From: Aldrovandia affinis | Taxonomy: Eukaryota > Chordata > Actinopteri > Notacanthiformes > Halosauridae | Direction of reading: 5' to 3' | Assembly (NCBI GenBank): GCA_029706075.1 | Contig: JAINUG010000037.1 | Coordinates: forward strand, 5,646,166-5,710,165 | Length of the DNA: 64,000 nucleotides | In this document: one piece after another, positions 10,901 to 64,000 of the stretch | Position numbering within the stretch: the stretch's first letter is position 1 | Layout of the letters: each line of letters begins with the position of its first letter | Made by a program: the position numbers and the translations under genes | The notes under the pieces: generated by a model | Databases searched by the model: none | What the model saw: only the letters and a program-made list of their open reading frames with translations | What the model was told of the DNA's origin: nothing

Positions 10901-13900
10901 CACCATCAAATCCTATAATTTCAGAATGTACCACTTTGGTATGCAGTACAAAATAAATGGGGAAAAAAACAAATGAATGGGCTGATTACAATACAGCTAG
11001 GGTGCATTCCAAAGGCAGTATGCCACAGATTATTTCACAAAGAGACTGATGGGGAGTGTAGTCCAGAGCTGTACAATGATAAGAAATGAAAGACCACACT
11101 TGTGGGTGCATGCTTCATATTAACATTTAATCATTAAGCGAAGTTTACTTGGTCTGTTTTCTAGGTCTCGATCTGACCACTAATGAAAAGATCTTAAACC
11201 AGAATTGTCTGGTTGTGAGGAATAGGAACCAGTTAGATTTGCAGTGTGCGTCCAATTGACTTCCTGTAGACAAAATAGCGATTATGAATTCTTAGTCCTC
11301 TCGTGTACTGTGGAGATGCAGGGCATGCTGAAACAGTGCAGGTCTTTGACGACGCTGTATGTTCCACACTGCTTGTCCATTATTGACGTTGTGTCTGTGT
11401 GTGTCTGCAGTGCAACAAAAAGGCTAAGCGCTCAGACATTGTCATGCTGTACGCACGCAAGCTGCGGGCGGTGGACAACAGCGAGCAGGAGAGCATGAAG
11501 AGGTAGGAGGCCAAGCCCACACTGTCACACATATATATATATATATATTATATAAAGGATTTGAAGATGCACATCTAATGCACATCTTGTAAGTTGCTCT
11601 GGATAAGAGCGTCTGCTAAATGCTTAAAATGTCAAATGAAGATTGCAAGAGGAAGATTAATCTCCTCTACGGACACGGTAAATAGTTTCCTTTAGTCTGA
11701 CTGAAAATATTATGTTCCAGGGCTGTTGCTTTCCCTTCGCTGGGCTCGTTGGTGTGAGTAACCATTGGGACCTCATGTTGTGAGTGCAGTCAGCAGCTGA
11801 GGCGGTTCTGTGTGTGCGTGTGTCTGCGCAGGTCGCTGGAGCAGGAGCAGTCACTGCGCAGGAGGGCCGAGTTGGAGTCGGCGCAGTGCAGGCTGCAGCT
11901 GCAGGTCCTGACAGACGAGTGTGGGAAACTGCGCAGACAGTTGCAGGCATGTAGACGTTATGCACTGCTCGCATCGCCTTCCTGAGAAACATCGTGAGCA
12001 GCGAGAGATCGGCGAATTCAGTTCATCTGAATTATTTGTAATTAACTGTCCAATTTTGAAAGCTGCAAAACGCTTACTAAAATGCTCACTGTTTCAATGG
12101 TAAACGATGAACGGCCCTAGTTAATCATGGGAGATGCTGGTCGTTCCTCCACTGTCACCATAACGGGCCAGTGTGCTCAGGCTTCTCTCTGTCCCCAGGA
12201 GCTGAAGACGCTGATGGCCCAGACTAGCTCTCAGCCCTCAGGAGCTGCCCCCCTCAGCCTCTCCCAGCGGCAGGACGCTGCTCAGGGGGGCCACTACGTG
12301 TTTGCGAAAGCCGTGCTGGTGTCCCAGCCGGGCGGGTGCAGGGTGCTGTCCTACTGCGAGCCCCTCAGCTGCTTGCTGGCCTCCCAGCCCTCCCCGCAGT
12401 CCACCCTCGTACCTGGTGAGGCCCACAAAACGCATTCAATTTATGAACGGCTATGATGAGAAACAATACTATTTTGTTTTTTTACATTCTTACGAGGTTA
12501 GTGTATTAATATATACCTGTAGGGCACTGTAATTGGGAGTATAATATGTGGTGTAATATAACAATTATATGATCATTGTTTCTTGAAGGGAGGTGGGGTG
12601 TATTAATAATATTGTTAATAGTAATAATAATAATGATAAGCAGTTATAATGAATAATATGGGATTGCATGTATATGGGCTGAACAGGGTGTAGTGTCACC
12701 GATGAAACCCGCATCTCTGTCCCTCTGGCAGGCTGTGGGGTGAAGAAGATCAGCGCGGCGAACCTGAAAGCATGTCAGTACGTGCCCATACACGCCAAAC
12801 AGATCCGAGGCCTGGCCTTCAGCAAGCAGGCAGACAGCCTCCTGCTCTCTGCAGCGCTGGACAGCACAGTCAAACTGACCAGGTACGCTGCCTCCTCCTC
12901 CTCACTGGGGGATTCATGAGCAAACTTTAAAATATCATACTTTTAGGCACATGGATAAGGGCGGGGTCATGGTTCACTGTTAATAATAAAGACATTATAT
13001 GTGTAGATGGGAGCTGCACAGGAGCTATGCTGTCAGGAGGTTGATGTTGCTGCTCAACACCGGGAAGCTGTGGCCAAACGGAGCGTAGTACCTGCTATTA
13101 TTGAAGGGGAAATCGGGTGGACTTAGGGCATCATTATTTTTTGTTGTAAATATGCAGAATCACCTGCAAAATGTTCCATTCTTTTTTGCGACCACAAAAA
13201 GCAGGTGTTATTTATAATGCCGCATCATTCTTTATAATGAAGTTCTCCTTGCAGGTGTGGTCACCTAAATATGGCAGGGAACTAAAAACATGAGTAATAT
13301 TATATATAATATGCTAGCAGGTTACATTACCTTGGCTGTGTTCAAACAACAGAAAACCATCTAAAATAATGTTGCCCCTGGAAACCTTAAGCAAAAGGAG
13401 CAGGTCTTCTCTTACACCAATTACTGATGGAGAAAACCACGCTGTATTTCAGTGCCAGTTTACCATCGGAGCAGAAGGGATGCAACATGTTTTATGTTTC
13501 TCGAAAGATAATAATGACCAGTTTGTGCAATCTGTTTATACAGCTTGCTTTCTGGCTAAATAGGTAGTTATCTACAAACCAATGTGTTGTGTTCGCTGGT
13601 TAGCGTGGATATTGTATTGTAGAGCTGTTTAGCCGCAAAGATGTAATGAGCTGGCTAAGCTTGTGAATTTCTTTTTAAATGACTACAGATTTACTTGTGG
13701 CAAATGATTATGTTGCTCTACTCGGCCTGCTGACTGCACCTTTGGATATCGTTATGTACTTTACACACATTTTTGCACTGAACTGTATGCAGTAAGACAA
13801 GAGCCTTAGCAGCTCATCTAGGTAGAACAATTTGCTAACTAGCTATGTTACCTCCTGCCTGTGGATAAATCTAGCTAGAAAGCCAGAATGCTAGATCGCG

Positions 13901-24067: not shown

Positions 24068-26560
24068 GTGAGGTTGGAAAAGGGCGATTGAGTGATAGAA
24101 GAAAAACCTTGGGTGTGCCTGCGGTTGGTGATCGAACAAGGCTGAGATGGATGGATGGATGGATGATGGAGGGAGGGGGTCTGTGTGGTCTGCATCAATT
24201 GCTTGCGGTATCGATGCGACGGTGAATGGACTGCGCTCCCTCCACTCCGCAGTGGGTCTCCACTCCAATTTGGCAGGGCATCCGGGAGATTACTGCCAGG
24301 GCTCCAGACATGCAGCACAGTTTTCTAAATATAAGCCAAGGAAGGGCCCATTTTGTAATGACACAGCTAACGTTTTAATGTGCGCCTGAAGAAGAAATAA
24401 GTATAGCTAACGTTCGCTCGCTGCGGCTGAGTGGCAGTTGATACTCGCGTTAGCTACATTGTTAGCTAGCTAAATGTTCTCGATAACGTTCGCTCGTTTA
24501 CGAGGTACGCTAACGAATCACGAAAACGTTACTTAAGTTACTATATGGGGCTGTTGCTAGCCTGCACATAGCTAGTAAGAGTTAACGTTATCGAACTAGC
24601 TCGCTCGCTGGAATCACTAACGTTGAATAGGTTACGGTACCGACAGTGCTGTAGCTTCAGAAATTCCACTCGAGGCTGGTTTGTTTTAAAGTTCGTTGTT
24701 ATAGTGCTAGCTATCGTGTTGTAAGACTATATTTCCTCTTTATTTTAAGGTAAAGCTGGCTAGCTAACGCAAGAGACAAGAATTTGGCCGTTGGTGCGTT
24801 GTGTAACTGTTTAGCTAGCTGCCTTGTAAGGCTATGCATTACCTAGATAAGGACGTCAACAGATAATTAGCCATCGCCTCGTTGCTTCGCACAAGTGATT
24901 ACGTGTGAAAATTGAACAAAAAATATTTACAGTACGTTCTTATTATGTATTTTTAGACGACGTGAAACAAAAAAAGTCTGACAATAATGACCACATTTTT
25001 TTAACGTTGTCATTGCTTTGTGACTACAGTCGTTCTTTGTGAGATGCGATTTCAAACAATGACAATTTTTCCCCCAATTGGTTTTAAAGCTGTTAAGACG
25101 TTTTTTGGGGTTCAATGCCATACACGGTGACCCATGACCCTCTCTACAGGGAGAGAAAATTCTGTGTTTGTACTTTATGAAAGCAGCTAGGCCTTACCAT
25201 AGTGACAGGACATTCCGTGAACATAAAACGAGTGAGCAGTTCGCATATCCCTGCTATTCTGTCCTGATGTTCTTAGGGGGGAAAAAACATTAGCAACTCT
25301 ACACCTTCATTAAACATTTGTTGCTGTTTTTAGATTGGCGGAAGTAATCCTTAACAGTGAAAATCTACTTTCTTGTAATAATCGAGATCTGTCCGTTTAA
25401 CCTGCAAGTTTTAATTTTATGAGAGGACCTGTTCTACAACAATAAAAATGTTTATTTTTATATATATATATATAATGTTGGAATGGCAAATTGGGCGTGA
25501 GTTTAAAAAATAAATAAATCAAGACTCCTTGTAATGCAAAGGTTTGGAAACCAGATCTGTCATTCTCCTTCCTTAAATGTGCGCAGTGCTGGAATTCAGG
25601 CTGGTGGAATAAGTGACAACGGAGGAGGTTGACGGCCCTGTCCTTTATTGTGACGCTGATGTAATGTGCCGTTAGGTTCAAACACTCCTCCCCTTCCCAT
25701 GGGTCTATACCTGCAGCCTATGACCTCCTAGGCCTCCAGCCTAAGAAGTGGAAGGTTGCCTTTGTCTCCACGAGTGATAAAAGGCATGGACCTGAGGATT
25801 ATTTCGGGCAGCGCAATAACAGGGTGGTTGTATGACACCTCCGGGGTGGTTGTATGACACCTCCCTTGTGTCGTCCTCTGCCGCAGAAGCACCTTCCTTA
25901 TTTGCACGCTCGGTGTGCAGAAGGAGTGGAGAAAGTTTGGCGTGCATCTCAACGGATGGTCTGTGCTGAGCCTGCCGCAGGCTGAACTGGCTCCAGCCCA
26001 TACCCTCTGGTGCCAGTGCTTGGACAGCCGGATCTTTGCTAGCCACAACGTGCATAGAAGGAAGTAGGGGTTTTCCTCCAGTTGCTCATTTTGTAACCTT
26101 AAATTTGCTTAAGTCACTTCTGGATCCTCCTCCACTCCCTCACTCACTCACTCAGCTGCCAGTGCAGTCACAAGGACAAAGGATCATTTGCCAAAAGGAA
26201 TGGAGCCATTTAGCTGGGAAGGCTGCTCAAACAGGAGTTTAACTGTGCAAGGCTATTTGTGCTTTTCATTGAAGAGTCACACTGACACTGATGTGAATAT
26301 AAGCTCCTCTGTGCCCTGTCCCCGTGATCACATGTTCAACCCATGTGACGTCTTTCCTCAGTCCTTTCTTGGTTTGGGCAACACTAAAATGTCCTTTCTC
26401 TCTTGTTGTATAATTTGGTGGCTCAGCTCTCTCATTAACAGAATAAGAAGCAACGCTTGACTGCTTGGTACATCATCCGTGCTGGCCACTCTTTTAAAAA
26501 AAAGTTTTGTTTATTAATATATATATGTATGTATATATATATATGTATCTATGTATATTA

Positions 26561-32500: not shown

Positions 32501-35500
32501 ACCTCGTCTGTATTTACAACCTTTTTTTTTTTTTCTTTTTCTAAATGGACAATCATTTTTTTCTCATTATTTTCACCGCACTTAAACATAAATAAAAGAT
32601 TTTATCTTCTTAAAAAAAGTTTTTACCCACATTTTTATTTATTCCCTGACATTTAATGGCCAATCACAATTTTAAAGACCATACCATCACTGCAAAGGAA
32701 CTCTGGGCATTTGGTTGGGCACAGATGCGCGTCTTCTGAAGTGAAGCCAGGCCCCGCTTCCTGCCTGCAGTCACCCAGCTGAGCCACGTGGCTCTTGGTC
32801 CGGAGTACTGCGCGGCCTGCGCGGCGGGTGCAGGCTGGCCCTGGAAGCCCGATTGGCCGGCGGAGCTGCTGTTCTGCAGTTTGGCAAAGAATGCCCCACA
32901 GGATCGTCCCGCGCAAGGCTGGGCTAATGTGCGGAGTTGCCAAAAAATATTTGTGTGCTGAAATTCCAGCCCAGAAAGTAATCAAACACTGAATTCCAGG
33001 GCAGACAAAGTCAAACTGTCTACGAAGCAGCCCGGCTACTTCTTCCCACTTCTCTCATGTCGCTTTGTCATGGTACAGTAGTCGTCTGCGTGGATCAAAT
33101 AAAGCCCATTCTCTTATCACAGCTCAATGTATTCCTCATCTTTCTGCTTCTGTGCAGCGTGCCTTCCTGGCTTGTTGCTCACATCTGTAACCATTGTATC
33201 ACGCTCCTTGCTTTGTTGTAGTTCCACAGTAACCCGCTGCTTCTTATTGCCAAATTTATGTTGTTGAATGGTTGTTTTTCATTCACTGTTGGCAGTCCCT
33301 CAAGGCCTGTGAAAACTGATGCTGAAAAATAACTTCTTTGCAAGCTTGCTAATTGCAAGAGCAGTTACTGACCCTTGTAGGCCCCGATGCACTACTTGAT
33401 CGAAGATCTTATGGGTTAAACTGAAACTGGACCGCGTGCAGGCACCAGATTTCAACAAGAAATTGCAAACTTCTAACCGCTCTGAAAAGAACAGTTGAAA
33501 TTGTAGTCTGTGCTCTGTGTATTAGGCTTAAGGGCATTGCAATGCACATCACACTGACCAAATGAAAATGGAAGAGATACTCTTGAAGGGTGCAAGTCAA
33601 GGTGACACATCTTGCGGTGTCAGGATGTTGGTTTTAGAAAGGTAGAGGGTTCCGTTTTACACAGAGGGTGATGCAGTGTTCTCTTTGGGCAAGGTTTTAA
33701 GATGTGCTTTCTTATCTTCTAGACCAAGAATAAACTACTTTACCTGCACAGAAAACCCTTGTGGCATTGTCCCCTGTGGAGATAACACAAAGCCAAACAA
33801 GTCTCACATTTTGATGTCCTGTATGCCACATTACACTAACATGAGCACACGTCAGTTCAAGCTATTTTTGTCCTTTCCAAAATATGTATATACGATTGAT
33901 AATTTTTGGAGGGGGCTTAGGCCATTGCATTATCGCATAAGGACAGAACGAAAAATGGTGCAGAATAGGCGTGATTTCATTGTGATTCTTGAAAATTGCA
34001 ACGCAATATACTGCAAATAAACCTGACTCTCATTACAAACCATTTTTGTCAATGTATTGTGCTTCCATTGTTGTGATGGGTGTCAGAGAATGGATTGTAT
34101 GGAAACCATTAATACTCCACGGCTCAATACATTCCTTAACATCTGCATCTGGCCAGTGCGTGTTGTCTTTGGCTCTCATGTCTTCAGCCATTGCCCATTC
34201 ATCCATCTTGCTGCTTTACTGTCCTACAGGAAACTGTTTACAGAAAATGTCTGTCTTGTTGGCACATTAGATGGTGAATTCTTATTTATCATTTGCCGTT
34301 GGCAGTCCTTCAGTTTGTGAAACCAAATGCTTAACGGTAATCTGTGAAAAGTACTAGCTTGTAGGCAAAATCTAATTGCCATTGCCTCCAGACACCAGAC
34401 ACTGCACTTCATCCCAGGTGTTAAACCCAGCTGCTTGTTCGCAGGCATCGGTTTAGAGCAGGCGATGTGCACATCCACTGGTCTCTATGGATACGTGTGT
34501 CTGCCTGAAAGCGTGTTCAACATCAGCCTGAAAGCGTGTTCAACATCAGCCCATCCAGATGACATGAGGGCCAGGTGCTCTGCACTGCCCTGTGCTGAAA
34601 GCTCGTGAACAAGCAGCAGACCCCGCTTGAGTGTGCATGCCTGAATTTCAGCAAGCATTGCAGCATCTCGTAATGGGCCGATGAAGGTAAATTGGGGATG
34701 AAATCGTAAAGTGTGCGATTCGTTAGGAGCTATCGTTCACTTGTGTTCCTGCTGTATCTACCTATAAACCCCTTTCCGGGGTGTAATAATAAGAGTAAAT
34801 AGATTTACAGAGAGATGCCCTGTACATAGTTCATACTCCATTTCCTGGAAGAGCGCATGACATGATGGCAGAGAGCTGAGGGACGAGAGAGCTGAGAGGT
34901 TTCGGGAGGGCCGCGGCCCCGCTTCGTGCCGGTGACTCAGTCTGATCTGCGTTATCTCCTGGCAGCAGCGCCCGACTCTCTCACGCTGAAGGATGGCCGC
35001 TATGGCGCATGTCATCCCGTTCGACCCACTCAATTCACCCGTGTGGAATCCATCTCAATTCCGGTAAAGGCCAAAAATGATGGATCGGGCTGGGGGAAGA
35101 GGCGGCAGGCGCCAGCGACAACAGTTCCTAGGATCTATTGCATTAAAGGAAAAAAAGAAAAAAGAAAAAGAAAAGCGCAACTCTGTCTTTTTCCATTACA
35201 CGGGCGCGGGGGTGTGGGGAGAAAAGCTGTCTGGCCCGTAGTGCTGTAATGGTGACGTTTATGGGGCAGGATGGATCGGCTAGGTGCCGCGATCCGAATG
35301 GGAATAAAGGCTGGCCCTGCGACTCCCCTCCGGGTCACCAGGGAGTCAGAGGAGGAAGAACTGATGTCTTGCTCGTTTTCAGCATCTGCGCTGTATTAAT
35401 GAAGTCTCCGCAGGACTCTGGGCCCTTCGTGCGCTGTGGTCCACGTGAGGATGCGAGCACCTGCGTGCGCCGATGCTTATGAGCGTAGACCTGCCTGCGT

Positions 35501-38500
35501 TTCTGTTCCCGGCCCTGGAGAGTTCCGTGGAAAGCGGGCAGCAGCAGCAGCGGATGTTCATTTGTTAGTTTGGCGGGTGCGGCTACTGCCCGCGACGCCA
35601 GAGGAGATGTCCATCCTCTCAGGCTAGGAATCTGCCTCAGATGGACACGTCGAACGCCCCCGCGGAGACGATCGTGTGCACGGTGCTTTCTGGCCTGCCA
35701 GAAGTGTTCATGACGCCGCTGTAGAAGAATCCCTTCCCCGAAGCCACACTCTTCCCCCTCCTTGTGGATGATTGTATTTTACATAATTGCCTTTTACATT
35801 TACGTTACATTTTAGGCATTTAGCAGACGCTCTTATCCAGAGCGACAGTTTACAGTTCTTTACATACAATCCATTTATACAGCTGGATATTTTACTGAAG
35901 CAATTCAGGTTAAGTAGAGTTCTGTACAACAGCAGTGCCCCACCTGGGAATTCAACCTGCAACCTCTGAGTTACAAGCCCAGCTCCCTAACCCTTACACT
36001 ACACTGCCAGCCCAATTGCTGGTTGCAGCCACATGGCCACAATTTGAGAAAGTCTGTACTATTGCTATTTTACTCTTCTCGCCAGTCTTCAACCTGTTTT
36101 CTTCTTCCAGTTTTAACACGAGCTACAAAACGAGCAGTTTGAGGAGTTTGTTCAGACAGTCCCATATCAGTTCAATCTGAATTTTCCATTTCAGATGAGA
36201 GTTTTGGACTGTGCACGTCAGTTCTCCCCTCTGCCATGTGACCCTCTCACATGCAGCGATCTCTAATTCTGTAGATGCCCACTTTGAGCCCATGTTTTGC
36301 TTCCTTGAGCAGAACTACAGTGTGCTGTCTGACTTTAGTTGACTATGTAGGTGGGATTTGTGTTGCTGTTGCTGGTCTTAGGAGCGAGAGACCGCATGAA
36401 ATGATCACTGCATGTTGTTTATTTCCATGAAATGTCTCAAAGCAGGTGCACTGTAGATTAACGGATGAGGGCTGTCCGCACTGTTACATGTACAGCACAT
36501 TGTGCATCCATTATTTGGGAATCGGGTGCAGGTTGCTAAGAGCATCCAGGTGTGCTGTACTGGTGCCTGGGCGTCAGGAAGCGACAGCTTGTAATAACTA
36601 CTTCTTTACGCCGTCTGTAAAGCGGTATAAGAGCTAGAGCATTTGGAAACACACACATTGTGTGTGCGCGCATGTTTGCGTGTGCGAGAGCGCGTGTGTG
36701 TGAATGTGTGCTTGCGAGCGTTTGTGTGCGAGCGTTTGTGTGTGAGCATCTGTGTGTGTGTGAGCATTTGTGTGTGTGTGAGCATTTGTGTGTGTGTGAG
36801 CGTTTGTGTGTGACTTGATCCAGACACGCCTTTCCTAATGAAAGAATTCCTGGCTCTGGTTCAGAGTGAGGAGGGGATGGCTGCTGTTTGGTGCCAGGAT
36901 ATGAGTCACAGAGCAAACCTGCTGAGTGTAATTAACAATGTGAAAGAGGAAAAGAAGGGGATGGGGACAGCCAATGGAATGGGCTCCTGTATACCTCCAG
37001 GCCCAGCCTGGAGAGATCCCTCCGGCCCCTCTGCTGGGAGAAAAACAGCGGAGGACAGAGAGCGGCTCTTTTTGGTCGTGCGGTTAAATGGTCGAGCAGC
37101 TGGCCGCGACTGACCTTAGAGAATAACCTTATGCTCTCAGTGGACACGGGAGCAGAATGCAGGAGTCGGACACCAGGAGGAGAAGAACCCCTCTCCCCCC
37201 GGAACCGGCCGACTGGCCAACGTCCTGTGCTCACCTCCAGCCGTGCCAAGCACTGATCTGCATGCAAGAAAATCCTCCTTTCTGAAGAATCCCGCGGGGC
37301 GCTCGAGGCGTGTCTACCCAATCCCCGTTCTGGCGTGGAGAGGGACCCCGGCTGGCCGCTGGCACCGGGGCTGCGGAACAAAGGCAGATGGTCACGTCTC
37401 AGCCTCTTTGAGACGGGGAGGGATGAGATTCCTCCTTTGGAAAATGTTGTGCTTTTGTCTTTCACCCAAAGCCGGCTCAACGGGCCAGGATGAGCTCCTA
37501 TCATCGGCAGGATCACACGGCTCCTTTATCTGCTCAGCGGCTGATTCAGCAGCAGAGTCGCACCGGAAATTGAATGACCTTTTTTTAAAGAAACAAAAAT
37601 AAAAAAGCTTATTTCCTGTGCTCTCGTTTGTGGTTATTACCGAGAACGCCGAAGCAGATCATTTTCTGCAAACGATTGAGCGAAAATGTCCCATATGCCC
37701 CCGCGAACAGAAGAACACGTAATTGGTCTCCGGCGTGCCTCGCCTTCGCGGCCTTAAAGACCTGTCTGCTTCTCCCACGTTTCATTTCATCGTCGTTCCG
37801 TGTTTTACGAACGTGACCCTGCGTCCCCTCCTCTGGCCAGGAGCAGCTGTGTGCGGGGTTCCTCGTTCGGGCTGTAAATGGGGCCGCCGGGGCTCGATGT
37901 TGAGAGAGTGAGCTGAACCTGGCCGTAGTCCCTCTGAAAGAGGCCTGTTCCTCTGACCTGCCCGCGCACTGTGCATGCCCTTCTCACGGCGGATTGCATT
38001 TCAGAGCGTGTTTTCTCTTCCCGCTGGGGAGTTGTTGTTTTTTTGCCTCGCCTTCTGCTTTTTGGAGGTTCAGGCCCGGCGCTTTCTTTTTATACCTTCC
38101 GTTTTCTGTGCAGCGTCTTTGTGACAGTTCTCTTTAAAAAGCGCAACACAAATAAAATGGAATTGAGTCGAGCGGAGGTTGATGGTCTTGCATGAGTCAC
38201 CTCGCCTTTTCCTCTAGCGTCGCTTTCCTTTTGTGGAAAATCTCTCGGGTTGAACCGTTATCAACCGCCTCGTGAACGTTGCTCAGTAGGTTGTGATAAA
38301 ACTGAAAGGTTTCCCAGAATTGAGACCGCAATAAGACCGCTGTGGTGAAAGAAGCTGATACGCAGGTCCCGGACGTGACGTTAAAGCGCTTATTTTTTGT
38401 CCTGAACTCTCAGTACTGAACAAGGCCAGGAGTGAGCACTGACATATTTTCTTGCTAGAGAAACACCTCCACCTGCTCGACTCGCCCTGCTCCGGGGAAA

Positions 38501-50500: not shown

Positions 50501-53500
50501 TGGTGGTGGAGAGTCCTATTCTGTGAGAAGATTTGTTTTTGACAAAAATCCTTACATGTGCAAGTATGAGTGATGGTTTTAATACTGTACATGGACAGAA
50601 GAGCAATGACTCATTTGATTCCAGTCACTCTTGACAGTTACCAGCGGTATTCTGGTAAAAGTGCAGAATCATCCTGAAACATTGTCATCGGAGCTTCACT
50701 CCATTTTACCCGCATCACATAATTCTGAGCGTTAAAATCCGCTTTTCTGCACAACGTGTAACTGCAATGTATGCGAAGAATTCCTAATCTCCACTCCGCA
50801 TCTCCCTGACCTGTTTGAACAGCCGCAAACCAAATACTCATTTGGCGTTTTAGGAGCAGCTAGTTTGCCGATTGCGGACATACAAGGCTTTGAGTCATGG
50901 GGCTTTGTTTGCCCGTCATTCGGAAACCCTGTTCCCCTTTTCCCTGCATGTACCACAAGTGACATCTTGATCATAACAAAATTGTCTGCCTGCGGTCCTT
51001 GCAGGTCCCTTCCCTGTGAATAGGAGACATTGTCCATCCCCTCCCCTCTGCAGGCTCCTCTGTTTCCATCTTTCTTTTTTTTTTTTTTTTTTGTCTTGGC
51101 TGACTGTCAACATGGTCCTGCCTCTGGAGAGTTTGTCCAATAATGGCAGGGGCCCAGACCTCTGCGAACCCGAATCCGTCAGTCTGATAACGCAGCCCTC
51201 TCTGCAAATTGCAGGGCTGCCAGCAAAAGCTCTACCTTTGTGTTGAGCTCAGACAAGACTCTACCCGCGGGCACAGGGGGAGCAGCTTGTCTGAGGTGGC
51301 CAGACGCTCGGAGCGTGTGTAAGTGTGGGGTGGCCCTGCCCGGTTCCTCCCGGGAGTGTTTTCGGCGCTGTTTGAGGGTGCTTCAGCTGCGAGAAGATGT
51401 GAGAATATAATGGCTGCTGCTTAGGTTTTTATCACCGAGTGAGTGTAATTATAAGTCCATGATTACAGCTGCAGTCCAAGGCGAGGAGGTGAACTCGGTC
51501 TGAGGGGTTTTAAAGTCCGTGTGCTGTGGGGGGGAGAGTCGGGGGAGGTGAAAAGGAGGGAGATTGTAATTGCGGTTTTGGCGTTTCTGTCTTTCTTTCT
51601 TTGGTGTTACTTCCTTCCTTTTTTTTTGCCACCTTTGAACAGCCCCATTGTTTCCTTCTTGACTCTTAAGATTGACTCTCATCCAACTGAAGCATTTTTA
51701 ATTAGGCTCATAAAGGTTTTGTTTGACTGGTCGTGTGCCTATTTAGATCCTTGGTGTAGGCCAGACCTACTTCCTGCACGTCCCCTATCTAGTCCGGGAG
51801 TGGCTGGAGCCCCCAGCACCTATCCGAGGCCTTTCTGGGCCCTTATGTGAAACCGTTCTTTCCAACTTGCCTATAACCGATATACTGCAACAACATTCAA
51901 AACTGTAGTCCGTAAGCTACGGCTAGTGGGAAAGCCAGCTTCAGTCTGCGCACAGTTTCCACAGAAAAAAACAAGCATGGGTATTTACCCTTACTTTTCA
52001 AAAGCTGTGACCTATCTTGCACGCAAGTAGGCATCAGGGAAAGTCTTGAGTCTTAAAGCCCAGCTCTCCTTCAGTTCTTTTTTCCCCACTCTCATCTCAG
52101 TCCCTCTTTCCCTCTCTCTCTGCTTGGAACAGGTTGTTCTCACGACTCCCTCTTTCTGCCTGTAATCTCTCTCTCTCCCTCTCCCTCTCCCTCTCTCCCT
52201 CTCTCCTTGTAGCAGGCTGCCCTCAGGACTGACATTCTCTCTCTGTCCCTCCCTCTCAGGACGTTCACTCCCAGGGCGAGGTCATTTCCTGTCTAGAGAA
52301 AGGTCTGGTGAAGGAGGCCGAGGAGCAGGACGGGAGACACATCATCAAGGAGGACTGCAAGAAGGCCATCATGCGCGTGGCCGAGCTCTCCTCCGACGAC
52401 TTCCACCTGGACCGCTACCTGTACTTCTCCTGCCGGGACGACCGCGAGCGCTTCTGTGAAAACGTGAGCCCCCTGCCCCCTCCTTCTCTCTCCGTCCACT
52501 GTGTCCAGTGCAGTGACCGATGGAGCCGTCGGCAGTGTGTGTCACGGATATACACCAGGGTGTGAGGCTGTGCCATGTCCGTTTGTGCGAGAATGTGTGG
52601 CCTGTTTGTGCTGCCAGGTTTTTGGTGGTCTCTGTCACTACCCTCTCCTTAATTGGCATACAGCAGAGAATGATTTGGATGACGATTTTTCACACCGGCA
52701 CTTCCACACCTCTGGACGGGCAGTAGTATTTCCCCAAATTGAACATCGCAATTGTGATATCTGTCTGTATAAACAAAGTCAGTGTAGATCATGATTGTTC
52801 TGTTTTTTGTTTTGTCTTGCAGGTCCTCGCTGGGGAGGGCAAGGTCTACAAGTGTCTCTTTAACCACAAGTTTGAGGAGTCCATGTCTGAGAAGGTTAAT
52901 GAACAGAATGACCTCTTCTTACAATCTTCCCAGTTACCTTTTTGGCACATACAAATGAGCATTTGAGCTGATATGCTTAGAGAAAAACGCAGGCATTTTA
53001 ATACCTTTTTGAATCTGGTTTGTCTCAGTGGGTCCTGCAGAAGCGATTCTGAGATTGTTCTTGCAGGGAAAATGGCACATCACATAAAGCACAGCTGCAG
53101 CTGCTTGGATGACCTGTAATTATGTGCTTTGAAATAACACTCCTGTCTCTCTCAGTGCCGAGACGCTCTGACCACCAGACAGAAGCTTATTGCCCAGGAC
53201 TACAAGGTCAGTTACTCCCTGGCCAAGGCCTGCAAGGTGGACCTGCGCAAGTACCGCTGCAATGTGGACACCAACCTGCCCCGAGCCCGGGAGGCCCGTC
53301 TCTCCTACTTACTGTTGTGTCTGGAGTCAGCCGTGCACAGAGGTGTGTGTGTGTGTGTGTGTCTGCGTGTGTGTGTGTCTGCGTGTGTGTGTCTGGAGTC
53401 AGCCGTGCACAGAGCTGTGTCTCTGTGTGTCTCTGTGTGTCTCTGTGTGTCTCTGTGTGTCTGGACTCAGCCGTGCACAGCGGTGTGTGTGTGTGAGCAA

Positions 53501-56600: not shown

Positions 56601-59600
56601 AATCTTTGATAGTAATATGCATGTGATGTTTTTGTCCATGTGGGCCTCAGGCCCCCGGCAATGCTGTGGCCCATTCTCACATCCCTGTGCTTTTCAGATT
56701 GGACCCCGTCCTGTACAGGAAGTGCCAGGGCGACGCGTCCCGACTGTGCCACACCCACGGCTGGAACGAGACCAGCGAAATGATGCCCCCGGGCGCCATC
56801 TTCTCCTGCCTGTACCGCCACGCTTACCGCACAGAGGAGCAGGGCAGAAGGGTAGGGCGGCATTCCTTGAGCCAGGGCCAGCAGCGAGGCACAATGCCGA
56901 ACAAGCTGCTGCTTTGTCACTCTGTAGCCACTGTCATCAAATTCAATAGCTGAAGTAATAATTGTGAGAGCATCAAAGAATGATTAAATTCCCTTTTTCC
57001 ACTTCAAATACTTTGCAAACCAGTCTGGGTACTTTGGAAAGACAATGCCTTTAGGCATTAAACTGAAAATCCAGTGATCTTTGAATCTTTGATCTTTGAA
57101 GTGCAAGTAGATTAATGCACTCTGTGCCATTTCTTTCGGTTAAGCTGTGTATAGTGTTACAGCCCAGACCAATGGCTGTAGTAAATATGTATTTGACATG
57201 ATTGAAAATTTTCTATAATTGATTCAGATGAACATGTTTAAGAAAAGCTTTCGAAACTTTCAAGTAGCACTTGACTGACTTCTGGATCAGTCTCACCTAA
57301 TAATCTGTCCTCTGAATACTTTATTTTTTATTTTTTGTGTGCAAGAATGAACAATTGACCATGTATTCTATTGTGTAAACATATTATACAACGTAAATCC
57401 ATATGGATTAATAGTCAAATGACAGTGAAATTAGCCGTAGGATGATTAAGATTACATTTAAATTGGTTAACAAACTCTTCTGAATTTAACAGCCTCATTC
57501 AGCGGAATCCGTAAATGTGTATGTAAGTAATCACTCAGTTTATGAACTTAGATAATTATGGTGGATGATGATGATGATGATGGTCAAAATAAATATTGAA
57601 TTGATCATGTCTAAATTGGGAAAAAATGGATATCCAAGACAATTTTGCCAACTAATTGAATTTCATGATTTGCCAATATTTGCCAAGAATATTCCTGAAA
57701 TGTATCCACAAATAAATCATGGTCAGATAAAGCTTAATAGTTAAATCCCTTCCTCTGCTAATCAAGGAAATTTGTAAACGGAGTATAATTAAAATGACGT
57801 TGACATGATTCTTTAATTGCTCAATTGATGGGGTTGTTATGGAGACTCGAAGCCATAGGAGAGATATGCATGTGTTTGTCTGTCTCTGCACGCCTCCTCC
57901 TCCGCCGCCGCCTCCTCCTCCTCCTCCTCCTGCATGCTGACGGGCGTCTTCCCCCTGGTCTGTCCTCAGTTGTCCCGGGACTGTAAAGTGGAGGTCCAGA
58001 GGATCCTGCACCAGAGGGCCCTGGATGTCAAACTGGACCCTGAGCTGCAGAAGCGCTGCATGACGGACCTGGGCAAGTGGTGCAGCGAGAAGACCGAGAC
58101 GGGACAGGTGGGTGTCAGAGCGGCCCAACACTGCTCCTCTGTGCGAACGGTCCTTTGCACAGCATTACTCTTCTCTGCTGTGTAACATACCCGAAATATG
58201 AGGAACTTGCCTCTTCTCACCTTGAAAGGCTACCGATCCAGCGATCTTAATCAATCTTATTGGAGTCTAGTTTCCCACCAACTGGTGTGATGTTCTGTCT
58301 AACTTGTGTGATGTCTAACTGGTGTGATGTTCTGTTTGTCCACCAGGAGCTGGAGTGTCTGCAGGACCACCTGGAGGACCTGGTATCAGACTGCAGGGAT
58401 GTTGTTGGAAACCTGACAGAGTTGGAGTCTGAGGTATGGAGGGATAGGGCTCACTTCACACTGAATGGAGGGATAGGGCTCACTTCACACTGAGTATGGG
58501 GGGATAGGGCTCACTTCACACTGAGTATGGGGGGATAGGGCTCACTTCACACTGAGTATGGGGGATAGGGCTCACTTCACACTGAGTATGGGGGGATAGG
58601 GCTCACTTCACACAGAGAATGGAGGAATAGGGCTCACTTCACACAGAGAATGGTTTACTCTTTCCATTCAAGCACATGATTGAGAGGTTGTGAAACATTC
58701 AGTGCCTTGAGTTTTGATCTTTTGTCTGGTGCAGACATTGTAGACTGTGTAACATTGTTTTCTGTCAATTGAATTGTGTGATTGTAAGGGCTGGAGTAGT
58801 ATTCTGTACAGCTCAGATACTGTGCTTTCAGATTGGCCTTATTTCTTTATTTTATTCCCCCACAATCGTTCTTTTAGGTTATGACCATTTAAGCTGTTCT
58901 ACATTAGTTCCTCTCCTTTCAACAGGACATCCAGATCGAGGCTCTGCTGATGAGAGCTTGTGAACCAGTGATCCAGTCGCACTGTCACGTGAGTCTCACT
59001 GTGACCTGAAACACCCCTTTCACTGAACTTTACACCATACAGCCCGCCCTGGAGCGCTTTCATTGGCTCCTTCTGTTTCCAGCCTGCCCCGGAGCTCTTT
59101 CATTGGCTCCCTCTCTTTTTCCAGTCTGACCTGTAGCTCTCTCCCTGACCTGGTGCACTTGTTGGCTCCTGTTCACAGCTCCTTCCCTAACCCATAACTC
59201 TATGCTCTGAGGCACACACAGTTCATTTTGGATACATGGGAATGCCCAAATTCCTCAGACCTTTCACTTTAGCCACAACCAATTTAGACATCATAAATAT
59301 AGCCTCTTTTATATCATGCATTAGTGGACCTTGTGCCATGGGCTGCTGGCTGCTTTTGCAGACTGTGGGAATGTTTCCATGGTAGGCTGAAATCCTCATG
59401 CGCATGTCTCCCTGGCATGATTTTTCTCCAGAATTGAGCCTTGGATGGGAAACTGGCCTGGAAGCCCTGTGATTGTGGCACACAATTTTAGATGTAATCT
59501 CCTGCATGCTATTTACAACTCCATGTTAACACTGGTAAATCCTTCTGTAGGGTTATAGCATTTTAATAATGGCACCTTTGAGCTCATGGTCTTTATTTCA

Positions 59601-59878
59601 TTTAAACAGCAACAAAAAGCAGCTGATGTTTTGCTAATGTGTTGAGTTGCTTGGAGGTCATAAAGAGATTGTTGACAGATTAAATGATCAAATGTAGATT
59701 GCTTCATGACGAGGACACACAATAAACAGACTGGACGTCCAGTGAGATAAATGTATTTTAGAAGCATCTAATGGGAGCCTTTTCTGTCTAACATCTCTAT
59801 TCCCATCTCTCTCTATCCCAATCTTTCTATCTCCCAATCTCTCTCACACATTCTCTCTCTCACACTCTCTCTCTCACG

Positions 59879-59915
<37 letters not shown>

Positions 59916-60265
59916 GTTCTCCTCTCTCTCTCTCTCTCACGCGTTCTCCTCTCTCTCTCTCGCCTTCTCTCTCTCTCTCTCTCTCTCTCATGCGTTCTCC
60001 TCTCTCTCTCTCATGCGTTCTCTCTCTCTCTCACCCGTTCTCCTCTCTCTCTCTCACGCGCTCTCCTCTCTCTCTCACGTTCTCTCTCTCACGCGTTCTC
60101 TCTCTCACGCGTTCTCTCTCTCACGCGTTCTCTCTCTCTCACGCGTTCTCTCTCTCACGCGTTCTCTCTCTCACGCGTTCTCTCTCTCACGCGTTCTCCT
60201 CTCTCTCACGCATTCTCTCTCACGCGCTCTCCTCTCTCTCACGCACTCTCCCTCTCTCTCTCTCA

Positions 60266-60315
<50 letters not shown>

Positions 60316-63300: not shown

Positions 63301-64000
63301 ATGCAAGTCTAACTGGCACATGTGTATGGGCCACACCCTCTGCCGTCCTCTCTGTGATAATGTCTTGTCTTGTCTAAATTCCTGTTTCAGCGTTTCTGCT
63401 CCGATGCCGATGCCAGGAACATGCTGCTGTGTCTAAAACAGAACAAGAACAGCGAGCTAATGGACCCCAAGTGCAAACAAATGATCACCAAGAGACAGAT
63501 CACTCAGAACACAGGTACTTTACTGAGCCACTGACAGATCTCTCAGAACACAGGTTCTTTACTGAGCCACTGACAGATCTCTCAGAACACAGGTAATTTA
63601 CTGAGCCACTGACAGATCTCTCAGAACACAGGTTCTTTACTGAGCCACTGAACAAACACTCAGAACACAGGCTCTTTACTGAGCCACTGACAGATCGATC
63701 TCTCAGAACACAGGCTCTTTACTGAGCCACTGACAGATCGATCACTCAGTACCTACAGTGAAGTCGCATCGCAGAAACCAGCATCATGTGTCTACTGTAG
63801 CAGCGAGTGATTGTGGCCCCATCTCCAGATGGATACTGATTTGATTACTAGTGTCTACTCTTATCTACCTCATGTTTAAAAACATGAATTATAATGAAGG
63901 GCTCCTTAGTCATTTTTCAAAAATGGATTTAAAGAGGCTAATTTTCTTTCCCCCAGACTACAGACTGAATCCTGTGTTACGAAAGGCATGCAAGGCGGAC
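23744..64000 (+). CDS. glg1: GLG1, Golgi glycoprotein 1 / ESL-1 / cysteine-rich FGF receptor (3' end outside window)
   Basis: Twenty-one exons: 23744-24067, 45396-45425, 47800-47886, 49187-49402, 52260-52463, 52823-52894, 53156-53342, 53668-53882, 54262-54383, 56205-56306, 56698-56851, 57970-58107, 58347-58433, 58926-58988, 60317-60430, 60849-60937, 61350-61467, 62416-62508, 62824-62961, 63391-63514 and 63957-64000. They give 907 codons with no frame break. The product has a signal peptide, a low-complexity Asn/Pro-rich segment, then tandem Cys-rich GLG1 repeats (Pfam cysteine-rich repeat family). Five N-glycosylation sequons (NLT, NIT, NET, NLT, NDT) match the human protein by recall. GLG1 is a type I sialoglycoprotein of the medial Golgi that binds FGFs, retains TGF-beta precursor and serves as an E-selectin ligand. 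About 270 C-terminal residues, including the membrane segment, are outside the window. Confidence 0.97.
24130..24178. repeat. (GGAT)n short tandem repeat
   Basis: Short GATG/GGAT tetranucleotide run. Confidence 0.7.
24366..24780. repeat. TAACGTT/GCTAGC motif cluster downstream of GLG1 exon 1
   Basis: At least six AACGTT copies (around 24366, 24406, 24483, 24525, 24581, 24617) are mixed with GCTAGCTA and TTCGCTCG repeats. It looks like the cluster at the RFWD3 5' end. Confidence 0.6.
26513..26612. repeat. (TA)n/(TG)n compound microsatellite
   Basis: Alternating TATATG and TATA runs surround an uninterrupted TG run at about 26560-26582. Confidence 0.9.
29590..29850. repeat. G/T-rich tandem repeat (GGCTGGGTGGGTGTGTG type)
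   Basis: Imperfect units of about 40-50 bases, built from GCTGGCTGGGTGGGTGTGTG and CTGCGTGCGTGG. Several GGGTGGGT pairs could form G-quadruplexes on the + (transcribed RNA-like) strand. Confidence 0.85.
35790..36020 (-). mobile_element. tRNA-headed SINE with UnaL2/L2-type tail (family B)
   Basis: Read on the minus strand: the head GGCAGTGTAGTGTAAGGGTT, a decayed box B (GGTTGAATTCC), a body containing GAATTGCTTCAG, and the tail GCTCTGGATAAGAGCGTCTG then CTAAATGCC. Nearly full length. Confidence 0.8.
36650..36815. repeat. GT-rich minisatellite
   Basis: Units of about 20-24 bases, TGTGTGTGTGAGCATTTG, several copies grading into TGCGAGCGTTTGTGTG. This accounts for the His/Thr-rich ORFs on the minus strand. 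Confidence 0.85.
39706..40090 (+). mobile_element. tRNA-derived SINE (family A), + orientation
   Basis: The head is GTGTGGTCTAGTGGTTTC, box B GGGTTCGATTCCC, the body GGCAATTGGCTGTCCACCCC, and the tail TGTAATTGGCTTCCAAATTG followed by GGGTGAAAATGGG. The tail matches the minus-strand copy at 20155-20540. Box B is canonical. Confidence 0.85.
41304..41340. repeat. 14-bp perfect hairpin
   Basis: AATATTGTAAGGAT is followed by a 9-base T-rich loop and its exact reverse complement. Too short for a typical microRNA precursor. Confidence 0.85.
41590..41925. repeat. CA/ACGC-rich repeat tract
   Basis: Interrupted ACACACGC, CATGCATAC and ACATACATAGACACGCAC units. Low-complexity, non-coding. Confidence 0.8.
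43480..43620. repeat. GT-rich minisatellite (GTGTGTGTGTTATT units)
   Basis: Repeated GTGTGTTATTGTGTTTGTG-like units. Confidence 0.85.
45396..45425 (+). CDS. glg1: GLG1 exon 2 (30-base microexon)
   Basis: The acceptor is TTTCTTTCCTTACAG and the donor is GTAAGT at 45426. It encodes ESEIAADCNH, which matches ENEISSDCNH in human. Phase 0 at both ends, so skipping would remove ten residues including one Cys of a repeat. Confidence 0.93.
45426..47799 (+). other. GLG1 intron 2
   Basis: It contains a transposon-like segment (about 46780-47330) related to that in RFWD3 intron 2. No gene. Confidence 0.75.
46850..47330. mobile_element. Transposon-like element, copy 2
   Basis: It ends AACTGTCAACCAAAATGTTA then GACCGCGACAGCCCTAG, as at 9506-9545. 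It shares GCATTTTTGATATACGTGCT with about 9334-9354. Internal sequence differs, so either two related non-autonomous elements or decayed copies are present. Confidence 0.5.
47800..47886 (+). CDS. glg1: GLG1 exon 3
   Basis: It encodes LLWNYKFNLTTDPKFETVAG and EVCKSTIAE. NLT is a conserved N-glycosylation sequon. The donor is GTGAGC at 47887, phase 0. Confidence 0.97.
47887..49186 (+). other. GLG1 intron 3
   Basis: It contains a full-length family B SINE at 48880-49085. Nothing else recognised. Confidence 0.8.
48880..49085 (-). mobile_element. tRNA-headed SINE with UnaL2/L2-type tail (family B), full length
   Basis: Read on the minus strand: GGTGGCAGTGTAGTGTAATG (box A TAGTGTAATGG), box B GGTTCGATCCC, a body with GAATTGCTTCAGC, then GTCGCTCCGGATAAGAGCAT and CTGCTAAATGCC. 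Box A and box B are canonical; the stem-loop has one change (CCGGATAAGAG). Confidence 0.88.
49187..49402 (+). CDS. glg1: GLG1 exon 4
   Basis: It encodes IKECEEETRGKGYLVSCLVD, then HRGNITEYQCHQYITKMTT and IIFSDYRLICGFMDKCREDI. It contains the conserved NIT sequon and spaced cysteines. The donor is GTCAGG at 49403. Confidence 0.98.
49403..52259 (+). other. GLG1 intron 4 (2.9 kb)
   Basis: It contains a GT run (49567-49588), a G13 run (49794-49806), a T18 run (51075-51092) and a C/T-rich tract (52080-52210) before the acceptor. No gene. Confidence 0.8.
52260..52463 (+). CDS. glg1: GLG1 exon 5
   Basis: It encodes DVHSQGEVISCLEKGLVKEA, then MRVAELSSDDFHLDRYLYFS and CRDDRERFCEN. The donor is GTGAGC at 52464. 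Confidence 0.98.
52464..52822 (+). other. GLG1 intron 5
   Basis: Nothing recognised apart from splice signals. Confidence 0.8.
52823..52894 (+). CDS. glg1: GLG1 exon 6
   Basis: It encodes VLAGEGKVYKCLFNHKFEES and MSEK (24 codons). The donor GTTAAT at 52895 departs from consensus at +3 to +5. Confidence 0.95.
53156..53342 (+). CDS. glg1: GLG1 exon 7
   Basis: It encodes CRDALTTRQKLIAQDYKVSY, then SLAKACKVDLRKYRCNVDTN and LSYLLLCLESAVHR. It ends with G of a split Gly codon. The donor lies at the start of a GT array (GTGTGTGT), and the last 24 bases of the exon are copied twice in the intron. Confidence 0.96.
53319..53490 (+). repeat. Tandem copies of the GLG1 exon 7 3' end
   Basis: The exon end GTCTGGAGTCAGCCGTGCAC plus AGAG (53319-53342) recurs at 53391-53414 and, with two changes, at 53459-53482. 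The spacing is 72 and 68 bases, and GT/CT-rich filler separates the copies. Copy 2 is followed by CTGTGT and copy 3 by GTGTGT. Confidence 0.93.
53565..53660 (+). repeat. (GT)n microsatellite abutting the exon 8 acceptor
   Basis: About 45 GT/GC-interrupted dinucleotides end only a few bases before GCACCAG|exon 8. No ordinary pyrimidine tract is present. Confidence 0.95.
53668..53882 (+). CDS. glg1: GLG1 exon 8
   Basis: It encodes RTVSGECQGEMLDYRRMLME, then DFSLSPEIVLHCRGEIETHC and GLHRKGRTLHCLMRVGRGDK. The donor is GTTAGT at 53883. The acceptor is preceded by UG repeats. Confidence 0.97.
53883..54261 (+). other. GLG1 intron 8
   Basis: It contains an (AC)n run at 54179-54214, about 50 bases before the acceptor. 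No other feature. Confidence 0.8.
54262..54383 (+). CDS. glg1: GLG1 exon 9
   Basis: It encodes LQTLIQEADPGADYRIDRAL, then NEACESVILTACKHIRNGDP, and ends in phase 2. The donor is GTGAGT at 54384. Confidence 0.98.
54453..54668. repeat. (CA)n/(CGCA)n minisatellite
   Basis: Units CACATCTGCTCACACGCGCG and ACACACACACACATCTACTC recur; the array begins about 70 bases after the exon 9 donor. Confidence 0.9.
54920..55090 (+). repeat. L2-clade LINE 3' end
   Basis: The 3' UTR-like segment ends GTCGCTCTGGATAAGCGCGT then CTGCTAAATGCTTAAAATGT and a short TGTAA-type repeat. It is 5' truncated and has no RT coding region. Confidence 0.75.
56205..56306 (+). CDS. glg1: GLG1 exon 10
   Basis: It encodes ILSCLMEHLYTEKMVEDCEH and RLLELQYFISRDW, starting with the last base of a Met codon. 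The donor is GTGAGC at 56307, phase 2. Confidence 0.98.
56307..56697 (+). other. GLG1 intron 10
   Basis: No gene or repeat recognised. Confidence 0.8.
56698..56851 (+). CDS. glg1: GLG1 exon 11
   Basis: It encodes LDPVLYRKCQGDASRLCHTH, then GWNETSEMMPPGAIFSCLYR and HAYRTEEQGRR. NET is a conserved sequon. The donor is GTAGGG at 56852. Confidence 0.98.
56852..57969 (+). other. GLG1 intron 11
   Basis: AT-rich, with a (GAT)n run near 57560 and a CCT/CCG triplet array at 57892-57931 just before the acceptor. Confidence 0.8.
57892..57931 (+). repeat. (CCT)n/(CCG)n triplet repeat upstream of exon 12
   Basis: CCTCCTCCTCCGCCGCCGCC then CTCCTCCTCCTCCTCC, ending about 38 bases before exon 12. Confidence 0.9.
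57970..58107 (+). CDS. glg1: GLG1 exon 12
   Basis: It encodes LSRDCKVEVQRILHQRALDV, then KLDPELQKRCMTDLGKWCSE and KTETGQ. The donor is GTGGGT at 58108. Confidence 0.98.
58347..58433 (+). CDS. glg1: GLG1 exon 13
   Basis: It encodes ELECLQDHLEDLVSDCRDVV and GNLTELESE; NLT is a conserved sequon. The donor GAG|GTATGG at 58434 is the first unit of a minisatellite. Confidence 0.97.
58431..58655 (+). repeat. Minisatellite starting at the GLG1 exon 13 donor
   Basis: About seven units of 29-32 bases, GAGTATGGGGGGATAGGG followed by CTCACTTCACACT. The first unit begins with the last codon of exon 13 and its GTATGG donor. Later units keep GAGTATGG or GAGAATGG. Confidence 0.93.
58656..58925 (+). other. 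Rest of GLG1 intron 13
   Basis: Ordinary AT-rich intron sequence ending CCTTTCAACAG. Confidence 0.8.
58926..58988 (+). CDS. glg1: GLG1 exon 14
   Basis: It encodes DIQIEALLMRACEPVIQSHC and H (21 codons). The donor is GTGAGT at 58989, phase 0. Confidence 0.97.
58989..60316 (+). other. GLG1 intron 14
   Basis: The last 520 bases are an almost pure C/T array; the first part is ordinary sequence containing two imperfect copies of an AGCxCTTTCATTGGCTCC motif (59051-59115). Confidence 0.8.
59793..60316 (+). repeat. 520-base CT-rich array joined to the exon 15 acceptor
   Basis: (CT)n interrupted by TCTCTCACGCGTTC units at near-regular intervals, running straight into TCTCACAG|exon 15. It explains the Ser/Leu/Arg repeat ORFs in this stretch. 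Confidence 0.95.
60317..60430 (+). CDS. glg1: GLG1 exon 15
   Basis: It encodes EVADNQIDTGDLMECLVQNK, then HQKEMNDKCSVGVTHFQL. The donor is GTAAGA at 60431. Confidence 0.98.
60431..60848 (+). other. GLG1 intron 15
   Basis: No gene or repeat recognised. Confidence 0.8.
60849..60937 (+). CDS. glg1: GLG1 exon 16
   Basis: It encodes IQMKDFRFSYKFKMACKEDV and LKLCPNIKK, ending with two bases of a Lys codon. The donor is GTGAGT at 60938. Confidence 0.98.
60938..61349 (+). other. GLG1 intron 16
   Basis: A short (CT)n at 61299-61325 precedes the acceptor; otherwise nothing recognised. Confidence 0.8.
61350..61467 (+). CDS. glg1: GLG1 exon 17
   Basis: It encodes VDVVICLSTTVRNDTLQDAK, then EQRVSVKCRKQLRVEELEM. 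NDT is a conserved sequon. The donor GTGCGT at 61468 is unusual at +3/+4. Confidence 0.97.
61468..62415 (+). other. GLG1 intron 17
   Basis: No gene or repeat recognised. Confidence 0.8.
62416..62508 (+). CDS. glg1: GLG1 exon 18
   Basis: It encodes SEDIRLEPDLFDSCKQDIGR and LCPNVAFGNAQ. The donor is GTGAGA at 62509. Confidence 0.98.
62509..62823 (+). other. GLG1 intron 18
   Basis: Nothing recognised apart from the CCTTCCTGCAG acceptor. Confidence 0.8.
62824..62961 (+). CDS. glg1: GLG1 exon 19
   Basis: It encodes VIECLKENKKQLTQRCHQRV, then FKLQEVEMMDPELDYQLMRV and CKQMIK. The donor is GTGAGC at 62962. Confidence 0.98.
62962..63390 (+). other. GLG1 intron 19
   Basis: AT-rich; no gene or repeat recognised. 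Confidence 0.8.
63391..63514 (+). CDS. glg1: GLG1 exon 20
   Basis: It encodes RFCSDADARNMLLCLKQNKN, then SELMDPKCKQMITKRQITQN and T, ending with G of an Asp codon. The donor is GTACTT at 63515, which heads a tandem array of exon-end copies. Confidence 0.97.
63496..63758 (+). repeat. Tandem array of the GLG1 exon 20 end plus donor
   Basis: The exon end CAGATCACTCAGAACACAG is followed by about six units of 39-45 bases (TTTACTGAGCCACTGACAGA then TCTCTCAGAACACAG). Most units end in ACACAG followed by GT or GC: GTACTT, GTTCTT, GTAATT, GTTCTT, GCTCTT, GCTCTT. Confidence 0.95.
63957..64000 (+). CDS. glg1: GLG1 exon 21 (cut by window edge)
   Basis: The acceptor is TTTCTTTCCCCCAG. It encodes DYRLNPVLRKACKAD with the first base of Asp from exon 20, and runs off the window. 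Confidence 0.95.

Follow-up and report, generated by a model that had tools for sequence, protein, structure and literature searches.

In a stretch of 64,000 nucleotides from Aldrovandia affinis (contig JAINUG010000037.1, positions 5,646,166 to 5,710,165 of the forward strand; the whole stretch is called the window below) the end of exon 20 of a plus-strand gene, which we take to be GLG1 (Golgi glycoprotein 1), is copied tandemly, together with its donor splice site, into the following intron. We think, with moderate confidence, that this array is a minisatellite of the kind named mirage in amphioxus, that it is mostly tolerated by the gene, and that one of its donor copies, at 63593, is a live competitor of the authentic donor at 63515, with a minor isoform prone to nonsense-mediated decay (NMD) as the predicted outcome.

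The window contains exons 2 to 20 in their entirety, preceded by the 3' end of exon 1 and followed by the start of exon 21. The numbering of the exons is that of human GLG1, and it agrees with the exon count in the window. Exons 2 to 21, when joined, form a single open frame of 799 residues without a stop, in which 13 Cys_rich_FGFR stretches (Pfam PF00839, E 8e-173) were recognized. The resemblance to vertebrate GLG1, together with three UnaL2 3' ends listed further down, would point to a ray-finned fish. The donor GT of exon 20 is at 63515 and intron 20 is 442 nt long. Tandem Repeats Finder (TRF) delimited the array to 63494-63739 (period 39, 6.2 copies, 89% matches, score 384), in agreement with the first-pass annotation of this DNA, which had noticed about six units of some 39 bases made of the exon 20 end and its donor. 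The self-match of the array is 0.79 at offset 39, compared with a best value of at most 0.395 at offsets 15-99 in 500 mononucleotide shuffles. The 39-nt unit consists of the last 21 bases of exon 20, rather than the 18-19 noted previously, and the first 18 bases of intron 20. The intronic part of the array occupies 225 of the 442 nt of the intron. The features are the following (a slash marks the splice junction or its copy):

63391..63514, plus strand: GLG1 exon 20, 124 nt, joined in consistent phase to exons 19 and 21
63494..63532, plus strand: unit 1, the authentic end of exon 20 (63494-63514) followed by the first bases of intron 20; the real donor CAG/GTACTT is at 63515
63532..63534, plus strand: in-frame stop (TGA) encountered when exon 20 is read on into the intron
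63533..63571, plus strand: unit 2, donor copy CAG/GTTCTT at 63554, with a low matrix score and a GU that is predicted to be paired
63572..63610, plus strand: unit 3, donor copy CAG/GTAATT at 63593, outscores the real donor and is predicted to be accessible
63611..63649, plus strand: unit 4, donor copy CAG/GTTCTT at 63632, all 39 nt as in unit 2
63650..63688, plus strand: unit 5, left part changed, donor copy CAG/GCTCTT at 63671
63689..63731, plus strand: unit 6, longer by four bases (43 nt), with donor copy CAG/GCTCTT at 63714
63732..63749, plus strand: unit 7, incomplete, consisting of the left end that derives from the exon, without a donor copy

The six donor positions (63515, 63554, 63593, 63632, 63671 and 63714) are thus separated by spacings of 39, 39, 39, 39 and 43 nt, and their hexamers read, in this order and as originally listed, GTACTT, GTTCTT, GTAATT, GTTCTT, GCTCTT and GCTCTT. 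AG precedes the donor position in all six units and is followed by GT in four of them (AGGT in units 1 to 4, AGGC in the other two). The exon-derived part of copy 5 matches without interruption over its last 14 bases only. As this part of the repeat codes, in the exon, for protein that is presumably conserved, the copying probably went from the exon into the intron, and the array in intron 20 would derive from the exon 20 junction. On the minus strand the repeated unit builds an open frame of 72 codons (63500-63718), which we take to be a by-product of the period, since 39 nt equal 13 codons.

Reading on from exon 20 into the intron adds GTLLSH and then meets the TGA at 63532, as the first-pass annotation had it. 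Every extension from 63515 to a downstream copy takes in this TGA, consequently the prediction that use of any such copy would introduce a premature stop holds for the whole array. The stop lies upstream of exon 21, which follows in the window, and presumably of further GLG1 exons beyond it.

Donor strength was computed with a human donor matrix, with a second matrix built from GLG1's own donors, and from the pairing with U1. With the human matrix the 20 GLG1 donors scored between 4.61 and 11.04 bits, and the authentic exon 20 donor, with 5.2 bits, was the second weakest. The copies at 63554, 63593, 63632, 63671 and 63714 scored 1.17, 8.54, 1.17, -5.46 and -5.46 bits, respectively. The own-donor matrix likewise put the authentic site second weakest of 20 (2.46) and gave 5.64 for 63593 and 1.43, 1.43 and -3.64 for the others. 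The U1 pairing energy was -7.1 kcal/mol for the authentic donor, and -5.6, -8.1, -5.6, -4.5 and -4.5 kcal/mol for the copies in order. The copy at 63593 is therefore the only intronic copy of the exon 20 donor that exceeds the authentic site, and it does so by both matrices and by U1 pairing. The suggestion that the copies are decoy 5' splice sites finds backing in this one copy (8.54 against 5.2 bits) and not in the four that score below the real donor, and the regulatory idea of the first-pass annotation narrows to a single predicted competitor, 63593.

A pseudo-donor that outscores the real donor within 300 nt was found in two of the 20 GLG1 introns, in intron 20 by 3.3 bits and in intron 4 by 1.4 bits, the latter being a GAG/GTGTGT at 49550 (8.62, compared with 7.21 for the exon 4 donor). 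Intron 15 has a near tie between pseudo-donor and real donor (8.76 to 8.78). Pseudo-donors of at least 8.5 bits are expected 0.09 times per 199 nt of intron; 63593 was counted in deriving this rate.

RNA folding predictions treated the two sites alike. In a context of -60 to +60 the probability that the donor GU is unpaired was 0.80 for the real site and 0.81 for copy 3 (63593); in the fold of the whole exon and intron it was 0.62 and 0.61. For copies 2, 4, 5 and 6 the predicted values were 0.00-0.04, and the donors of copies 2 and 4 (GGTTC) and of copies 5 and 6 (GGCTC) can pair with GAGCC of the unit. Silencing of these copies by RNA structure looked convincing at first, but the functional donors of GLG1 weakened the idea, as will be described below.

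The exon 20 donor is not the only one in the gene that begins a tandem array. Three of the 20 GLG1 donors do so, those of exons 7, 13 and 20, and the two sister arrays are:

53316..53495, plus strand: exon 7 array, the last 27 exon bases and the donor (GAG/GTGTGT at 53343) copied twice into intron 7
58429..58653, plus strand: exon 13 array, 31 nt x 7.3, starting 5 bases inside the exon and including the donor (GAG/GTATGG at 58434)

The exon 7 copies have either lost the GT (GAG/CTGTGT at 53415) or are weaker than the authentic site (GCG/GTGTGT at 53483); between -27 and +6 the sole difference of copy 2 from the authentic site is at donor position +1. Four of the intronic copies of the exon 13 array (TRF scores 364-375) read TGA/GTATGG and three have no GT. 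Over the three arrays 10 of the 11 intronic donor copies that could be scored are below their authentic donor, in addition to the three exon 13 copies that lack GT. When all junctions of the gene were tested in a uniform way, exons 7 and 20 were above all 200 dinucleotide shuffles. The exon 13 array is the weakest of the three cases: its p value in this test was 0.04 without correction for the 20 donors, no more than five bases of the exon are involved, and an ungapped test gave 12 matches of 24, which was not outstanding, even though the repeat as such is evident. The donor side of exon 10 (p 0.035) was discarded as a chance result, the 9-base match not spanning the junction. On the acceptor side, 0 of 20 GLG1 sites showed an upstream copy that exceeded the shuffles (lowest p 0.109).

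Between 45 and 63.7 kb there are eight runs of non-simple tandem similarity, which make seven arrays after merging two at exon 7. For at least three of seven arrays to start by chance in the 40 nt upstream of a donor the probability is 0.002, and for two of six, with exon 20 set aside, it is 0.023. It must be noted that both are post hoc values, and that the statistic rests on an entropy filter which kept 3260 of 6234 sampled positions and dropped simple repeats.

From the array, the exon frame, the stop, the motif scores and the predicted folds, which were observed or computed, we infer its origin, the use of the donors and the involvement of NMD as follows. A 39-nt segment spanning the junction of exon 20 and intron 20 would have been duplicated in tandem into the intron, by slippage or unequal exchange, and then expanded. 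In designed libraries of tandem donors the first of two consensus sites was predominantly used, and if the two were unequal the stronger one dominated, while acceptors had no order preference, as far as the consulted passages of the report go (PMC6783452). With such a preference for the first donor, duplications downstream of a donor would be nearly harmless as long as the copies are equal to it or weaker, and this fits the three arrays as well as the lack of arrays on the acceptor side; most copies would since have decayed. The authentic donor 63515 should still give most of the mRNA, because the exon-adjacent site is favoured among equals and four of the five copies score lower. Copy 3 breaks this rule, as it is stronger than the authentic donor; it should compete and give rise to a minor isoform in which exon 20 is 78 nt longer and carries the in-frame TGA; this isoform would be removed by NMD. 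If the third copy is used, variation of the repeat number would be a simple source of heritable change in expression.

Several results weigh against this account. By U1 pairing the authentic donor has a middle rank (10th weakest of 20), and 63593 exceeds it by just 1 kcal/mol. The weak copies (-5.6 and -4.5) fall inside the range of the gene's functional donors (-4.1 to -13.3). By this measure the real site can hardly be termed weak, nor can the copies be termed dead. The GU is unpaired with a probability below 0.20 at nine of the 20 functional GLG1 donors, and of 0.04 or less at three; with functional donors equally buried, the predicted burial of copies 2, 4, 5 and 6 is no proof of their silence. 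The differences between units are only marginally concentrated in the donor 9-mers (Fisher p 0.051 for the three arrays, 0.26 for exon 20), the variable columns, counted by hand and post hoc, being 8 of 27 in the 9-mers vs. 10 of 77 in the rest for the three arrays, and 3 of 9 vs. 5 of 30 for exon 20. Finally, the passages available on amphioxus report that RT-PCR suggested that mirages leave splicing undisturbed (PMC3087553).

The last observation, the average rank of the real donor by U1 pairing, the low scores of four of the five copies and the advantage that position gives to the first donor in the passages cited above (PMC6783452) would all suit an inert mirage minisatellite, i.e. neutral intronic clutter with all splicing from 63515. 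We regard this as less likely, although it deserves serious consideration. What argues against it is the third copy, which surpasses the real donor by three measures and is predicted to be just as open. At the other extreme, the array could be a regulated decoy/NMD switch, in which copy number or splicing factors set the level of productive GLG1 mRNA. In its favour, each extension to a downstream copy contains the in-frame stop, and one strong and open copy lies near an authentic donor of low matrix score. However, the copies showed no sign of selection, nor of conservation in the non-vertebrate collections searched, and the predominance of weakened copies and of copies without GT resembles decay or silencing more than maintenance. 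A regulatory switch is possible but unsupported, and we think it improbable. Low odds must also be given to a broader proposal: that donor junctions in this lineage seed minisatellites more than other sites do, that these survive since exon-adjacent donors win by position, that GLG1 displays three stages of the process, and that the array of exon 20, in which a single decoy has reawakened while others are silenced, is a copy-number-variable dial on productive splicing.

Two further explanations concern the units themselves. Each unit, with its CAG followed by GT, could serve as acceptor and donor, and new introns or an exonized segment could be in the making within the array. In its favour, all six units have AG ahead of the donor position, in four of them as part of AGGT, and duplication of an AGGT segment is a described route to new introns in the sections of the papers we relied on (PMC4974935, PMC2891723). 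But the 17 CAGs of the array have pyrimidine fractions of 0.35-0.59, whereas the real acceptors, 20 in number, have 0.53-0.94 (median 0.82), three of them overlapping with the array values, and the TGA of unit 1 ends coding use. As these tracts are poorer than those of 17 among the 20 real acceptors, the creation of introns within the array was judged unlikely, and early intron gain or exonization as an explanation of the whole seems very unlikely. Units could also have been collapsed, expanded or misjoined, as short tandem arrays can be misassembled and the copy number comes from one assembly. Yet the units differ by point changes and indels, the array is just 246 bp long, and the two sister arrays are made of different units, so that we find an assembly artefact scarcely credible.

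Mirages, defined as tandem repeats that span exon-intron boundaries, were described in the amphioxus genes Adh3 and the globins BflGb6 and BflGb9 (PMC3087553). According to the passages compared, they occur on both sides of exons (on the acceptor side in BflGb6, on the donor side in BflGb9), and in one globin gene two haplotypes differed in them. Like the GLG1 array they are boundary-spanning repeats beside an intact exon with AG/GT in many, though not all, units, and the 39-nt unit of exon 20 falls within their range of 10-160 bp (PMC3087553). What distinguishes the present case from the published part of the amphioxus data that we used is that it concerns a vertebrate-type gene with three instances, all at donors, and that in exon 20 one copy outscores the authentic site. 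Mirages, like other tandem duplications of AGGT, were proposed as a source of new introns (PMC4974935, PMC2891723). The examples of such intron gain in the sections consulted (the Rogers model, ATP2A1, potato RdRp) share with GLG1 the duplicated AG/GT segment, and the potato RdRp duplication also crosses an intron-exon boundary (PMC4974935, PMC2891723). GLG1 differs from them in that there is no new intron position, the copies lying within the existing intron 20 and mostly without good acceptors.

Polymorphic repeated blocks are found in other fish introns, such as intron 1 of sea bream MSTN-2 and introns 1 and 3 of GH (PMC3045353). In MSTN-2 a predicted extra acceptor scores a little higher than the real one; the passages compared contain no description of copied exon-donor junctions such as those of GLG1 (PMC3045353). 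Tandem alternative donors (GYNGYN; tandem alternative splice sites, TASS) are alike in that serial donors compete for one exon (PMC1779574, PMC2878309, PMC8055015), but TASS donors are 2-12 nt apart in the text at hand (PMC2878309), compared with 39-199 nt, and a stop in between, in GLG1. The choice among competing donors is reported to be shifted by SRSF1 and hnRNP A1 (PMC5585400). Poison exons coupled to NMD, for which the portion of the report used gives Scn1a exon 20N as an example, also add a premature stop upon inclusion, while in GLG1 an extension of the exon, and not a separate exon, is predicted (PMC7790302). Among the matches listed in our literature search, in which the word mirage itself was not sought, there was no GLG1 array and no vertebrate mirage. 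The mirage is thus a known kind of element, described only from amphioxus in the literature reached; the additions made here are the exon 20 case, its recurrence in a single vertebrate-type gene and the strong copy at 63593.

Searches with the protein of exons 18-21 (112 amino acids) gave 4 stretches matching the pattern in viral contigs and 22 in genome contigs, none of which was confirmed; these collections are not vertebrate, hence they teach nothing about conservation of the array. No solved structure matched the exon 20-21 peptide (56 amino acids) at E values up to 1.

Some other repeats were observed in the window. A 40-nt array of 2.5 copies (59040-59140) begins about 50 nt past the exon 14 donor and does not include the exon. 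A TC-rich repeat of about 500 nt (59806-60312) reaches nearly to the acceptor of exon 15, which starts at 60317. Intron 1 of GLG1 contains two perfect two-copy tandem duplications, apparently recent, at 25822-25864 (22 nt) and 34503-34551 (23 nt). Three 3' ends of UnaL2-type long interspersed elements (Rfam RF00436) are located at 940-993 (minus strand), 11577-11629 (plus strand) and 35810-35866 (minus strand).

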